Shown in pieces: positions 6,051-12,209 of a stretch of 64,000 nt of DNA (position 1 is the first letter of the stretch; every line of letters begins with the position of its first letter). The notes beneath the pieces were generated by a model. That model worked only from the letters and a program-made list of their open reading frames with translations. It was not told where the DNA came from and searched no databases. The stretch spans positions 2,558,162 to 2,622,161 of the forward strand of contig AP024674.1 of the NCBI GenBank assembly GCA_025998755.1, read 5' to 3'. Position numbers and translations under genes: made by a program. The stretch comes from Armatimonadota bacterium (GTDB lineage: Bacteria > Armatimonadota > UBA5829 > DSUL01).

Positions 6051-6947
6051 ATGTTTGCACAGGAATCTACCTGGAGGACCAAGGTCGGCCTTGCCGAGAT
6101 GCTCCGAGGCGGCGTGATCATGGACGTGACCGACGCGGAGCAGGCCCGCATCGCCGAAGAGGCCGGAGCGGTGGCAGTCATGGCCCTGGAACGGGTGCCC
6201 GCGCAGATCCGGGCGGAGGGGGGAGTGGCGCGGATGAGCGACCCCCGGAAGATCCGAGAGATTATGGATGCCGTCACTATCCCGGTGATGGCAAAGGCCC
6301 GCATTGGCCACTTCGCGGAGGCGCAGGTTCTGGAGGCTCTGGGAGTTGATTTCATAGACGAGTCCGAAGTGTTGACGCCGGCAGACGAGGAGCATCACAT
6401 TGACAAGCACGCGTTCAAGGTGCCCTTCGTCTGCGGATGCCGGGACCTTGGCGAGGCCCTACGGCGGATTGGGGAAGGCGCGGCGATGATCCGCACCAAA
6501 GGCGAGGCGGGGTCCGGCAACATCGTGGAGGCCGTGCGTCACATGCGGGCCGTCATGAAAGAGATCCGGCGCATCCAGAACATGCGCGGCGACGAGCTGA
6601 TGGCGCTGGCCAAGCAGCTGGGCGCGCCCTTCGAGCAGATCCGTTTCATTCACGAAAACGGCCGGCTACCTGTCCCCAACTTCAGCGCAGGCGGAATAGC
6701 GACTCCGGCCGACGCGGCGCTGATGATGCAGCTTGGAGCCGAGGCTGTGTTCGTTGGCAGCGGCATCTTCACCAGCTCTCCTGATCCTGAGGATCAGCTG
6801 CGCCTTGCGAAGGCGATCGTGCTTGCCACCGCCCACTATGATGATCCGAAACTGATCGCCGAGGTCTCCTACGACCTGCCGAAGATGCGCGGCGTTGACG
6901 TGCGCAAGCTGGACGAAAGCGAGCTTATGGCAACACGCGGGTGGTGA
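6051..6947 (+). CDS. pdxS: Pyridoxal 5'-phosphate synthase, PdxS subunit
   Basis: Synthase subunit of the DXP-independent vitamin B6 pathway. It makes PLP from ribose 5-phosphate, glyceraldehyde 3-phosphate and ammonia. At 298 residues it is full length. Family landmarks are all present: [20 protein letters not shown] at the N-terminus (the D of MDV is an active-site residue), the first Schiff-base lysine in [10 protein letters not shown], the second in [11 protein letters not shown], and the phosphate loop [12 protein letters not shown] with GSGIF. The glutaminase partner pdxT, usually adjacent, is not in this window. PLP is needed by several enzymes encoded nearby (trpB, alanine racemase), but there is no operon link. 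Confidence 0.97.
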
Positions 6948-6975
6948 CGCACACTGCCAGCTTCACAGAGACTTG

Positions 6976-7001
6976 TGGCCGCGCTCACGTGGGCGCGGCC
7001 A
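6976..7001 (+). terminator. Hairpin after pdxS
   Basis: TGGCCGCGC (6976-6984) pairs perfectly with GCGCGGCCA (6993-7001) around an 8-base loop, 29 bases after the pdxS stop. Only a weak T-rich tail follows, so efficiency as an intrinsic terminator is uncertain. It separates pdxS from the DnaA-box region. Confidence 0.5.
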
Positions 7002-7146
7002 TCCACATATTTCCACACCCTGTTGAAGCCACGAACGATCCAGCCCCCTCACGTGTCCCAAATCGCCGCCGGCCCAACAGACCCTGCGGGCGCGCCTGCA
7101 CATCTCCACAGAACGCCCAGCGGCCATCCCCCGGGTTTGCCGGATA

Positions 7147-7155
7147 TTATCCACA
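7147..7155 (+). promoter_or_regulatory. DnaA box, perfect match
   Basis: TTATCCACA, an exact match to the strong bacterial DnaA consensus TTATNCACA. Confidence 0.75.
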
Positions 7156-7189
7156 GGGATCTTCCGCTCACTCTAAGCTCACGTCCACA

Positions 7190-7198
7190 TTATCCACA
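7190..7198 (+). promoter_or_regulatory. DnaA box, perfect match
   Basis: A second exact TTATCCACA, in the same orientation as the one at 7147 and directly beside the AT-rich stretch. Confidence 0.75.
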
Positions 7199-7290
7199 GA
7201 GCATATTACCATTACTTCTGGTCCGTATATAAAGAACTAAGTTATAACGGAGCGTCGGAACGTGGATGCTCATCCCCACAGAACCGCACC

Positions 7291-8406
7291 ATGCACATTC
7301 GGCGGATCACCATACTCAACTTCAGAAACCTGGAGCCCACCAACCTGGAGCTGACGGCGGGGTTCTGGGCGGTTCTGGGGGACAATGCCCAGGGCAAGTC
7401 TAACTTCCTGGAGGCCTGCTCCGTCCTCTGCAGGGGACAGTCCCATCGGACCGAGCGCGAAAGGGAGCTCGCCAGACGGGGGGACCGGTGGTTCACCATC
7501 GAAGGGAGGATCTGGCGGGAACAGCGAGGCGGCGTGGACCTCGCTGTTCGGCTGAATCCTGAAGGGAAAAAGGAGCTCCTCACTAATGGCTCGCGCGCCT
7601 CATCTCTGACCAAGTATGCCCAGGAGGCGGCCAGTGTACACTTTTCCTCCGATGATGTGGAGGTCGTTCGAGGCGAGCCTTCGCTGCGCCGGGACTTCCT
7701 AAATGAGGTCGCCTCTCTGGTGAGCCAGGGCTACGTCTATGACTACAGCCGTTTCCGAAGGGCGCTGGAACAGAAGAGCCGGGCGCTCAAGGATATTCGT
7801 GACAGACTGGCACCACTCTCATCGCTGGACGTCTGGGATCACCAGCTGGCGGACTACGCCGGCAGAGTATGCGCTCGCAGGGAGCGGCTGGTGCGAGAGC
7901 TTGCTCCTCTGGTGAGGGATCTGTATGGGCATCTTTCGGGCGGACTGGAGGATCTCGTTCTATCATATGCCCCCGATGTGCCGGCTCCCCCATCTCTGGA
8001 AGGTTGGCCGTCAGCGATTGCGTCTGCGCTTGCTGCCCGGCGCGGCGAAGAGCTGGAACGCGGGATTCCGCTGACGGGTCCGCAGCGTGACGACGTATCC
8101 ATCACCATTGGGGGGATGGACGCGAGGGCGTTCGCGTCGCGGGGGCAGTGCCGGACGGCGGCCCTGGCACTCAGGCTTGCGCAGGCCAGACTGGTCCGCG
8201 AACAGACGGGGGAGTGGCCGGTTCTACTGATGGATGATGTGTTCGCGGAGCTGGATGAAAGGCGCCGCGGACTGCTGATGCAGGCCGCATCGGAGGCGGA
8301 GCAGACGCTTGCGGCAGCCGCCAGCGAGTCGGACCTTCCCGGCCAGGACGGCGTATTCGCGGGACGCCTCCGGGTTTCAAAGGGTATGCTGTCTTTCGAG
8401 GGATGA
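7291..8406 (+). CDS. recF: DNA replication and repair protein RecF
   Basis: ABC-type ATPase that with RecO and RecR loads RecA at gapped DNA. It has 371 residues, the normal length. The Walker A motif is GDNAQGKSN (about residues 30-38). The ABC signature region is SRGQCRTAALALRLA, and the Walker B is VLLMDDVFAELD. It begins 93 bases after the second perfect DnaA box, and its stop overlaps the start of the DUF721 gene (ATGA), so the two are one operon. In many bacteria recF follows dnaA-dnaN; here those two genes are missing from the neighbourhood. recO is 13 kb away in the trp operon. Confidence 0.96.
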   Translation: MHIRRITILNFRNLEPTNLELTAGFWAVLGDNAQGKSNFLEACSVLCRGQSHRTERERELARRGDRWFTIEGRIWREQRGGVDLAVRLNPEGKKELLTNGSRASSLTKYAQEAASVHFSSDDVEVVRGEPSLRRDFLNEVASLVSQGYVYDYSRFRRALEQKSRALKDIRDRLAPLSSLDVWDHQLADYAGRVCARRERLVRELAPLVRDLYGHLSGGLEDLVLSYAPDVPAPPSLEGWPSAIASALAARRGEELERGIPLTGPQRDDVSITIGGMDARAFASRGQCRTAALALRLAQARLVREQTGEWPVLLMDDVFAELDERRRGLLMQAASEAEQTLAAAASESDLPGQDGVFAGRLRVSKGMLSFEG

Positions 8407-8726
8407 GAGGGATGCAGGACAGCAAATGGGAAAGCGTGGGAAGCGTCATGGGCAGGCTGATGGAAAGCCTGGGCTTGACGGACGCGCTCAGGGAGCAGAA
8501 GACGCTGCTCTATTGGGAGGAGGCCGCCGGCAGGAAGCTCGCTGCAAAAGTTCACCCGGTCCGCATTCAGAAGGGGATCCTGTGGGTGCATGCCGCGGCG
8601 TCCACCTGGGCGGCGGAGCTGAGCCTTCGCCGGCAAGAGATCATGGACCGCCTCAACGGGATGGCGGGTGCGCAGGTCGTGCGGGAGATCCGGCTCGTGG
8701 GCAGCACCGGCCGGGAGCGGCGATAG
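8403..8726 (+). CDS. dciA: DUF721 protein, DciA-like replicative helicase operator
   Basis: A 107-residue DUF721 protein. The family includes DciA, which helps load the DnaB helicase at the origin in bacteria that lack DnaC/DnaI loaders. The family core is visible: LGLTDALREQKTLLYWEEAAG, then KVHPVRIQKGILWVHAAAST and WAAELSLRRQEIMDRLN. It overlaps the recF stop by 4 bases (ATGA) and must be translationally coupled to it. The recF-DUF721 pairing is conserved near origins in several phyla. The helicase-loading role is carried over from characterised family members, not shown here. Confidence 0.85.
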   Translation: MRGMQDSKWESVGSVMGRLMESLGLTDALREQKTLLYWEEAAGRKLAAKVHPVRIQKGILWVHAAASTWAAELSLRRQEIMDRLNGMAGAQVVREIRLVGSTGRERR

Positions 8727-10036: not shown

Positions 10037-10693
10037 ATGTCGCTGAACGTTGAACTGCTGAACTGCCGCCGTCTGACGACCGGCATCCTGTTTCCGACGC
10101 GTCAGTTCACGCCGGGTGAGCTAAATCGCCTGTATGCCACCGTCACAGAGCATCACCCCTTCCAGACGCTCCTGCATCTGCCGGACGGCATCCGGATGGC
10201 CAACCCGGAGAACGATTGCGTGGTGCAGGGTGGACAGATTCCCCAGCCCGGGCGGATCCAGGTCAACGATAATAACATCTTCCATTTCGAGCCAGCCAAG
10301 GAGCGGACCCTGGATCTGTTCGACCTTGTCTGCACGCATCTGAACATCCAGCAGTTCCTGACGTTTGGAGTGAAGCTGACCGCTTTTCTGCCAAGCGAGG
10401 GCGAGACGGCGGCGGAGGTGCTGGAGAACAGTGTTTTTGCGGGATTCCGGGGTCATCTGAGGCTGCTTGGAGAGGGGCGTCAGGGGACAGGATTCCGGGT
10501 GGTGCTGCGGACAGACGGAGCTTACGACCTGCGCATCGAGCCGTTCTTTACGGATCTCACCCAGCTTTACATTGAGCTGGACGTGCAGTATCCTGAGCCG
10601 TTTTCCGGGCTTGCGCCGGTGGAAGAGAAGATGAACCGGGCGTACCGTTTCCTGAACGAGGACGTCCGTGAGCTGCTTCGACAGCTGAGTTGA
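10037..10693 (+). CDS. Conserved-looking protein of unknown function
   Basis: I do not recognise this 218-residue protein. It has no signal peptide or membrane segment. It looks like a soluble alpha/beta protein with many strands (VELLNCRRLTTGILF, then RIQVNDNNIFHFEPAKERT), ending in a helix VEEKMNRAYRFLNEDVRELL. The pattern recalls small proteins of the TIGR04255 kind, but I cannot confirm this. The ATG at 10037 is preceded by GGAGA and lies about 45 bases after the extended -10 promoter. An in-frame ATG at 9977 lies inside that promoter and is unlikely. The gene is monocistronic between the M24 protein and the GGDEF gene. Confidence 0.6.
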   Translation: MSLNVELLNCRRLTTGILFPTRQFTPGELNRLYATVTEHHPFQTLLHLPDGIRMANPENDCVVQGGQIPQPGRIQVNDNNIFHFEPAKERTLDLFDLVCTHLNIQQFLTFGVKLTAFLPSEGETAAEVLENSVFAGFRGHLRLLGEGRQGTGFRVVLRTDGAYDLRIEPFFTDLTQLYIELDVQYPEPFSGLAPVEEKMNRAYRFLNEDVRELLRQLS

Positions 10694-10788
10694 GAAGAGC
10701 AGAGAAAGAGGTGTGCCTGGCTTGACTCTCGGGCGCGAGAGGACTGAAAAACCCGTACTTTTCTCCGTTCAAGGGCGGGAGGAGCGCG

Positions 10789-10797
10789 TGCTATACT
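10789..10797 (+). promoter_or_regulatory. Extended -10 promoter for the GGDEF gene
   Basis: TGC-TATACT, extended -10, with a poor -35 (TTCAAG, 10768-10773, 18-base spacer). It lies inside the open frame that begins at 10713, so translation must start later, most simply at 10887. Confidence 0.5.
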
Positions 10798-10886
10798 CGA
10801 TTGACGGTCCCAGAGAGGGGTCCGGTGGATCGGAGCGCTCGCTCACCCTACTGGCGAGCGGCGGGCAAGAAAGGGTTCCTCAGTTG

Positions 10887-12209
10887 ATGAAGAGCGTCCG
10901 GGAAGTCATGTCCCTGGACATCATCACCATCCATCCCTCCAGCAGCGTCAAGTCGGCCATCATCCTGATGCAGGGCCACGGAATCGGCGCTCTTCCTGTC
11001 GTCACGGACGAAGCACTCGTGGGCCTGGTGGAAGAGCGCGACCTGCTGGGACGGGACCCTTCCGAGCGCATCAGCGCCGTCATGCGGCGCGACTTCCAGA
11101 GTATCTCCCCCGACACCGGCATCCGTGCGGCCGCCGATCTGATGGCGCGGACGGGCGAGCGCCGGCTGATTGTGGAGGAGAACGGCGCGCTGGTGGGCAT
11201 CGTCACTGTCGGGGATCTCCTGCCGGACCTGGGCAAGTTCACAGACCCCGTCACCGGACTTCCGTGGTCGGATACACTCCGCGAGTGGTGCACCACGGCC
11301 CTGGCGGGCGGCTCCGAGGTGTCCATCATCTTCTTCGATGTGGACCGGTTCGGGAGCTTCAACAAGAAGTACGGCCACGTCATTGGCGATCTGGTTCTGA
11401 AGGGCATCGCTTCTCTCTTGCAGGGGGTGGTGGACCCCGAGCTGGACCTGCTCTGCCGTGTGGGAGGGGATGAGTTCGTGATCAGCAGCCTCAGGCGCCG
11501 GGATGACGCGCTGGACCTGGCGAAGCGGGCTCAGGAGAGGGTGGCCCGGCTTCGCGTGGAGGATGTGGAGGATCCGATCAGCGTGAGCTACGGCGTCTCC
11601 GGGGGACGCCGGACTCGGGAGCGGGAGGCCACCCACTACGCGGCCACAATTGACGATCTGCTGAACCGCGCCAGCCGCGAATGCACAGCCATGAAGATGA
11701 TGGAGCGTAGCGCCCGGGCGGCCGGTGAGGCCGCAGCCCCATCCGAAACGCCGCGGGCGGAGCCGCTCCCCGCCCCGCAGGCCACCCAAGGAGCGCGCAT
11801 CCGGATCGAGCAGATCAGCTACAGCGCCTCAGACCTGGAGTGCTCTGTGGAGGTGCGCCTGTCTTACGCCGGACGCGCTTTCTCGAAGACTCTGCAGCGA
11901 TTTGCGGGGCTGGGTTCCTTGGTGCGGCTGGCGGCGGATGCGTGCGCAGCGTCCGCTCAGGAATGCCTTCCGGCGGGTTACCGAATCGCCGTCGAAGACG
12001 TCCGCGAATTCCGGGCGCCAAATGCCGAGACCCTGATGATCTCCACCGTGGCGATCGCCACTCCCCGGGAGGCCAGCGTCTACTACGGCGTGGCCGCCGT
12101 GAGGCGGGGCGACGCCTACCGGGCCGCTGCGGCGAGCGTGCTTTCCGCCCTGAATCGCCCTCTGGGGCTGATCCTCTCCGAATCAGCCGGCTCTGTGGCT
12201 GCCTCCTGA
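10887..12209 (+). CDS. CBS-pair diguanylate cyclase (GGDEF) with an extra C-terminal domain
   Basis: A 440-residue signalling protein. Two CBS motifs (about 1-115; VREVMSLDIITIHPSSSVKS and the second repeat SAVMRRDFQSISPDTGI) probably bind an adenine nucleotide. A GGDEF domain follows (about 130-275), with DVDRFGSFNKKYGH and an intact RVGGDEF, so it should make cyclic di-GMP. No RxxD inhibitory site is seen upstream of GGDEF. A Pro/Ala linker leads to a C-terminal domain (about 310-430) with two similar beta-alpha halves that I cannot name. I place the start at the ATG at 10887, because the promoter at 10789-10797 lies downstream of the earlier in-frame starts. A TTG directly before it is an alternative. 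Confidence 0.85.
   Translation: MKSVREVMSLDIITIHPSSSVKSAIILMQGHGIGALPVVTDEALVGLVEERDLLGRDPSERISAVMRRDFQSISPDTGIRAAADLMARTGERRLIVEENGALVGIVTVGDLLPDLGKFTDPVTGLPWSDTLREWCTTALAGGSEVSIIFFDVDRFGSFNKKYGHVIGDLVLKGIASLLQGVVDPELDLLCRVGGDEFVISSLRRRDDALDLAKRAQERVARLRVEDVEDPISVSYGVSGGRRTREREATHYAATIDDLLNRASRECTAMKMMERSARAAGEAAAPSETPRAEPLPAPQATQGARIRIEQISYSASDLECSVEVRLSYAGRAFSKTLQRFAGLGSLVRLAADACAASAQECLPAGYRIAVEDVREFRAPNAETLMISTVAIATPREASVYYGVAAVRRGDAYRAAAASVLSALNRPLGLILSESAGSVAAS

Follow-up and report, generated by a model that had tools for sequence, protein, structure and literature searches.

In the replication origin (oriC) of Bacillus subtilis, the basal unwinding system (BUS) is made up of tandem DnaA boxes, a short GC-rich spacer and a run of DnaA-trios. 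The rule derived for recognizing such a module requires a DnaA box with no more than two mismatches, followed within at most 16 bp by at least three 3'-NAN-5' triplets (PMC8287927). Origins situated apart from the initiator gene are already known: the Escherichia coli origin lies away from dnaA (PMC8287927), and a Caulobacter-like, hemE-type origin has been described (PMC4403523). In Fimbriimonas ginsengisoli Gsoil 348, a member of the Armatimonadetes, dnaA, dnaN, recF and gyrB are scattered and the GC skew is jagged; its authors looked for oriC between dnaA and dnaN and could not fix its position (PMC4072686). No specific description of an origin upstream of recF, or between dnaA and recF, turned up in literature searches. 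The locus described here resembles the E. coli and hemE-type origins in being detached from the initiator gene and differs from them in its neighbours, the recF-dciA pair being a remnant of the ancestral cluster. The scattering of dnaA, dnaN, recF and gyrB and the jagged GC skew are shared with F. ginsengisoli. What sets the present locus apart is that recF and dciA have remained at the origin and that extant relatives still display the steps leading to this arrangement.

The window, by which is meant the whole 64-kb stretch of DNA that was analysed, covers positions 2,558,162-2,622,161 of a genome consisting of a single contig of 3,289,812 bases (3.29 Mb), and a window position p corresponds to genome position p + 2,558,161. 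The non-coding spacer between pdxS and recF is very probably the chromosomal replication origin, of the DnaA type. As an origin it is an ordinary one, set in an unusual neighbourhood. The computed observations comprise a cluster of DnaA boxes, a switch in strand asymmetry, a dif-like site on the opposite side of the chromosome, parABS nearby, no rival box cluster at dnaA, and recurrence in relatives. In window coordinates, the features are as follows.

6051-6947, + strand: pdxS, occupying the place that dnaA holds in same-class relatives; it does likewise in the genus relative
6948-7290, + strand: proposed oriC, the non-coding pdxS-recF spacer (genome 2,565,109-2,565,451), with boxes, AT-rich patch, skew switch and conservation within the genus
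6999-7017, + strand: distal tandem pair of weak DnaA boxes, CCATCCACA and ATTTCCACA, 10 bp apart, with TCCACA cores at 7002 and 7012
7102-7110, + strand: weak DnaA box ATCTCCACA, two mismatches
7147-7155, + strand: perfect DnaA box TTATCCACA, identical in the genus relative and there too at offset -144
7181-7198, + strand: proximal tandem boxes, weak ACGTCCACA (7181-7189) abutting perfect TTATCCACA (7190-7198)
7199-7223, + strand: 4-bp GAGC spacer, then DnaA-trio-like triplets ATA TTA CCA TTA CTT CTG GTC, read by the rules of PMC8287927
7200-7249, + strand: putative AT-rich unwinding element, with the lowest-GC 47 bases in the 64-kb window
7291-8406, + strand: recF (TIGR00611, 298 bits, cut-off 172)
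8403-8726, + strand: dciA, DnaB helicase loader/operator (PF05258, 73 bits, cut-off 24), overlapping the recF stop codon

Both profile matches bear out the original prediction, which had named the downstream genes as recF and a dciA-like gene. Farther along, 2 kb past dciA, positions 10713-12209 of the window encode a protein in which two CBS domains are combined with a GGDEF (diguanylate cyclase) domain; the gene beside it (10043-10693) has no Pfam match, yet the genus relative has a conserved counterpart of it.

The spacer measures 343 bases, from the pdxS stop at 6947 to the recF start at 7291, in agreement with the non-coding interval first proposed. The two perfect boxes that had been reported in it in the same orientation are present on the + strand, and the several near-boxes mentioned alongside them number four, all on the same strand as the perfect pair. 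Together the six boxes form two tandem pairs, one distal (6999, 7009) and one proximal (7181, 7190), with two single boxes between them (7102, 7147), and their TCCACA cores (7002, 7012, 7105, 7150, 7184, 7193) all lie on one strand, the opposite strand of the spacer having none. Only two of the boxes are strong, fewer than in many known origins, which counts against the reading of the spacer as an oriC. Perfect TTATCCACA boxes occur nine times in the whole genome, a modest excess over the five copies of a reversed-pattern control, and on that count the boxes could be chance matches in an ordinary spacer. This explanation is effectively refuted by the six same-strand cores, for which a Poisson expectation of ~4e-5 such clusters was obtained for the 1.69 Mb of genome sampled, by the conservation of box positions within the genus, and by the coincidence of the spacer with the skew switch described below. 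The boxes at 7147 and 7190 are also the only close-set pair of perfect boxes in the entire 3.29 Mb; nine random sites would be expected to yield ~0.001 pairs within 52 bp, which upholds the claim that two exact 9-mers so close together are unlikely by chance. In the 1.69 Mb sampled, the TCCACA cluster of the spacer is the densest and its graded DnaA-box score of 12 is the highest, the runner-up stretch scoring 7, so that the box cluster is the richest found in the chromosome, judged by the sole perfect pair genome-wide and the top score in the sampled part. The convergent TTTTCCACA pair at 1,781,903 was weighed as a possible competing cluster and rejected, having a score of 7 against 12 and lying far from the skew break. 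Its two boxes (1,781,903-1,781,923) are 3 bp apart and perhaps mark a DnaA-regulated site.

From the proximal boxes onward, the spacer carries a putative module similar to the B. subtilis BUS (PMC8287927) in its tandem boxes, its 4-bp GAGC spacer and the middle A in six of seven triplets; it differs in having degenerate trios and, of its two proximal boxes, a weak one. On the complementary strand, the triplets with a middle A (3'-NAN-5') at 7203-7223 include four consecutive ones from 7212. Box 7190-7198, the 4 bp that follow and the triplets at 7203-7223 conform to the BUS rule, which is a lenient one and is here satisfied by a degenerate trio match; with moderate confidence, the layout at 7190-7223 can be said to fit a BUS, a fit that taken alone would argue only weakly for an origin. 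Next to the boxes, where an oriC is expected to have its unwinding element (here 7200-7249), the AT-rich patch at 7201-7247 has 14 G or C bases in 47, the minimum among all 63,954 47-base windows of the 64-kb window, in keeping with its description as AT-rich in the original prediction. The same boxes might instead serve DnaA in controlling a recF-dciA promoter, with the origin some tens of kb away, for example near parAB, and the recF promoter must indeed sit in this spacer. Tandem boxes with a trio and an AT-rich stretch, found also in genomes of the same class, form the layout of an unwinding module and not that of a repressor site, however, and no comparable box cluster was found elsewhere in the sample, which includes most of 2.48-2.64 Mb.

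Strand asymmetry was measured as the skew at the third position of codons, with a correction for the strand of each gene (T3 = T/A, G3 = G/C), using 1,318 predicted gene-like frames in 20-kb stretches that make up about half of the genome. The check suggested at the outset, plain GC skew, was ragged when computed in 20-kb pieces and too noisy to place an origin, and was dropped as a test in favour of the third-position measure, whose T/A component does show the origin. T3 alone has breaks at 2,570 kb (2,570,000) and 945 kb, and T3 and G3 combined have breaks at 2,565 kb (2,565,000) and 960 kb; none of 500 block permutations reached the T3 or combined break. In block bootstraps, 79-81% of replicates (T3, combined) placed the origin within 2.50-2.62 Mb, and in the remaining ~20% the break fell outside this interval, in most cases on the right-hand side of the window. 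G3 alone gave a weaker signal with a break at ~2.885 Mb, which counts against the assignment. When the skews were cumulated gene by gene, the minima were located at 2,567-2,568 kb for T3 and 2,562-2,564 kb for G3, flanking the spacer at 2,565.1-2,565.5 kb. A strand-asymmetry switch is thus found at the site, as expected of an oriC, both in the combined and T3 breaks and in gene-level minima within ~4 kb. Leading strands usually carry an excess of T and G. Because the right-hand arm has its excess of T and G on the + strand, the break at 2.565 Mb corresponds to the origin and that at 0.95 Mb to the terminus. The spread of the bootstrap breaks, tens to hundreds of kb, would accommodate a promoter in the spacer and an origin at some distance from it, but the T3 and G3 minima on either side of the spacer fit such an arrangement poorly.

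Other landmarks of the chromosome were located with respect to the spacer. The sole dif-like site in the genome, AGTTCCGATAAGATATATTATGTTAACT at 965,961-965,984, lies near the skew terminus (945-965 kb); we take it to be dif-like from a match at 23 of 28 positions to the B. subtilis dif sequence. With the contig treated as a circle, this site and the spacer split it into arms measuring 1.60 and 1.69 Mb. The parA and parB genes and a perfect parS at 2,512,908 are 52 kb from the spacer. The terminus is therefore roughly opposite the spacer and parABS is near it, as is expected for an oriC. The 52-kb offset of parABS is also what an origin near parAB would call for; weighed with the skew minima, the box sampling and the module layout, the explanation of the boxes as a DnaA-controlled promoter is improbable. 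The spacer itself remains the preferred site of the origin, a proposal supported by the T3 and T3+G3 breaks, the box cluster and the relatives.

The canonical dnaA-dnaN origin cluster is absent here, neither gene adjoining the spacer. The dnaA gene is located at 1,587 kb (1.587 Mb) beside rpmH and rnpA, 0.98 Mb from the spacer, and its product has both the ATPase and the DNA-binding domain; dnaN is at 123 kb (0.123 Mb), 0.85 Mb from the spacer, and gyrB at 2,452,275. The suggestion that the origin region had lost or moved dnaA, dnaN and gyrB is accordingly correct as to movement for dnaA and dnaN and incorrect as to loss, and the distance to gyrB is just 113 kb. Most known oriCs adjoin dnaA or dnaN (PMC4403523), and boxes follow dnaA in two relatives (G005 and G007, below), so that the true origin might be sought at dnaA or dnaN, the recF spacer being a relic. 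This is extremely improbable: no DnaA box within one mismatch was found in the dnaA locus, none of 500 bootstraps (T3 or combined skew) placed the origin less than 200 kb from dnaA or dnaN, and the dif-like site is opposite the spacer. The original prediction had named, as findings that would overturn it, a GC-skew minimum elsewhere with a richer box cluster near dnaA and a lack of conservation of the boxes in relatives; no box cluster was found near dnaA, the skew switch falls on the spacer, and boxes upstream of recF recur in relatives. With the origin in the spacer, dnaA lies ~61% of the way along the path from origin to dif, and gene and origin therefore differ in copy number and replication time. 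Origin finders take their bearings from dnaA or dnaN, both of which would mislead here by almost 1 Mb.

By analogy with known systems, the spacer is likely to work by the steps of binding, melting, helicase loading and firing. DnaA, supplied from its distant gene, would bind the six same-strand boxes and spread from the proximal tandem boxes at 7181-7198 onto the trio-like strand at 7203-7223, melting the AT-rich stretch at 7200-7249. DciA, encoded just downstream, may then help to load DnaB, after which the origin would fire and two forks would travel to the dif region at ~0.966 Mb.

Forty relatives were searched; most are fragmented draft assemblies, where neighbouring genes may be parted by a contig end. 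The genus relative has the order pdxS, spacer, recF unchanged; its box at -144 is identical to that in the window and its box at -101 has one change, CTATCCACA standing in place of the perfect box at 7190-7198. A similar pair of distal weak boxes is present at the matching place. Identity to this relative is 94% over 7199-7250, 63% over the distal spacer (6948-7140) and 86% over recF. At least two boxes with no more than one mismatch occur within 600 bp upstream of recF in the genus relative and in more than 10 further genomes of the same class, as against none of 15 recF loci tested in other phyla as a control. The arrangement is thus conserved in relatives, as the original prediction had anticipated in proposing a search for boxes upstream of recF; in G002 and G003, the remaining family members, only weak boxes were found there, which counts against the assignment, although the trio-like sequence is kept. 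In one of these (G002:C37:13000-21000, L177), a divergent dnaE-like gene (DNA polymerase III alpha) replaces pdxS upstream of the recF spacer.

At least 13 genomes of the same class have dnaA within ~1 kb upstream of recF on one contig, in most cases with DnaA boxes between the two genes. Several same-class relatives have tandem boxes that run on directly into repeated triplets and AT-rich sequence, as in TTATCCACA-GCATCCACA-cccattacaactaccattaccatattaaatatataat. This gene order suggests that the ancestor of the class had dnaA-oriC-recF-dciA, and that dnaA, together with rpmH and rnpA, later split off in the family of the window. In genus g11 (G014, L176, G014:C257; G015, L175, G015:C138), boxes are found upstream of recF and dnaA is absent there, its place being taken by a serine-hydrolase-like (beta-lactamase-like) gene that is tandemly duplicated in G014; no boxes were found after dnaA in the sequence available for this genus. 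The separation of dnaA from the origin in g11 is apparently independent of that in the window's family, as judged from the family labels of the search tool. In genus g5 (G005 and G007, dnaA loci L171 and L168), recF has a different location and it is dnaA that is followed by boxes and a trio-like layout; in G007, the recF locus (L179) is 31 kb from dnaA, with parAB between them. Four genomes outside the class (G034, G035, G036 and G031) keep the classical order dnaA, dnaN, recF, and in most same-class genomes with dnaA beside recF, dnaN is on a different contig from recF. Since most of the class has dnaN separated from recF, dnaN probably left before dnaA did. These orders could be read as a stepwise breakup of the ancestral cluster, dnaN leaving first and dnaA afterwards at least twice independently, with the origin usually kept with recF and dciA and with selection perhaps preserving linkage to the helicase loader and not to dnaA; we offer this scheme tentatively and consider it rather doubtful.

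The assignment gives a concrete origin to a lineage without one and hints where to look in relatives with unplaced origins; the F. ginsengisoli genome is worth rechecking at recF. The natural series found here, in which dnaA is attached, dnaA is detached twice, or recF is detached, bears on the question of whether an initiator gene needs its origin beside it. Among the remaining genomes, G017 has two full dnaA genes (C251 and C233), one of them directly before dnaN, representing either a true second copy or contamination (~3%). In G039, from another class of the phylum, fifteen perfect TTATCCACA boxes, many at 11-bp spacing, are packed within ~340 bases downstream of dnaA (G039:C1:172136, L160), making this an exceptionally box-rich origin.
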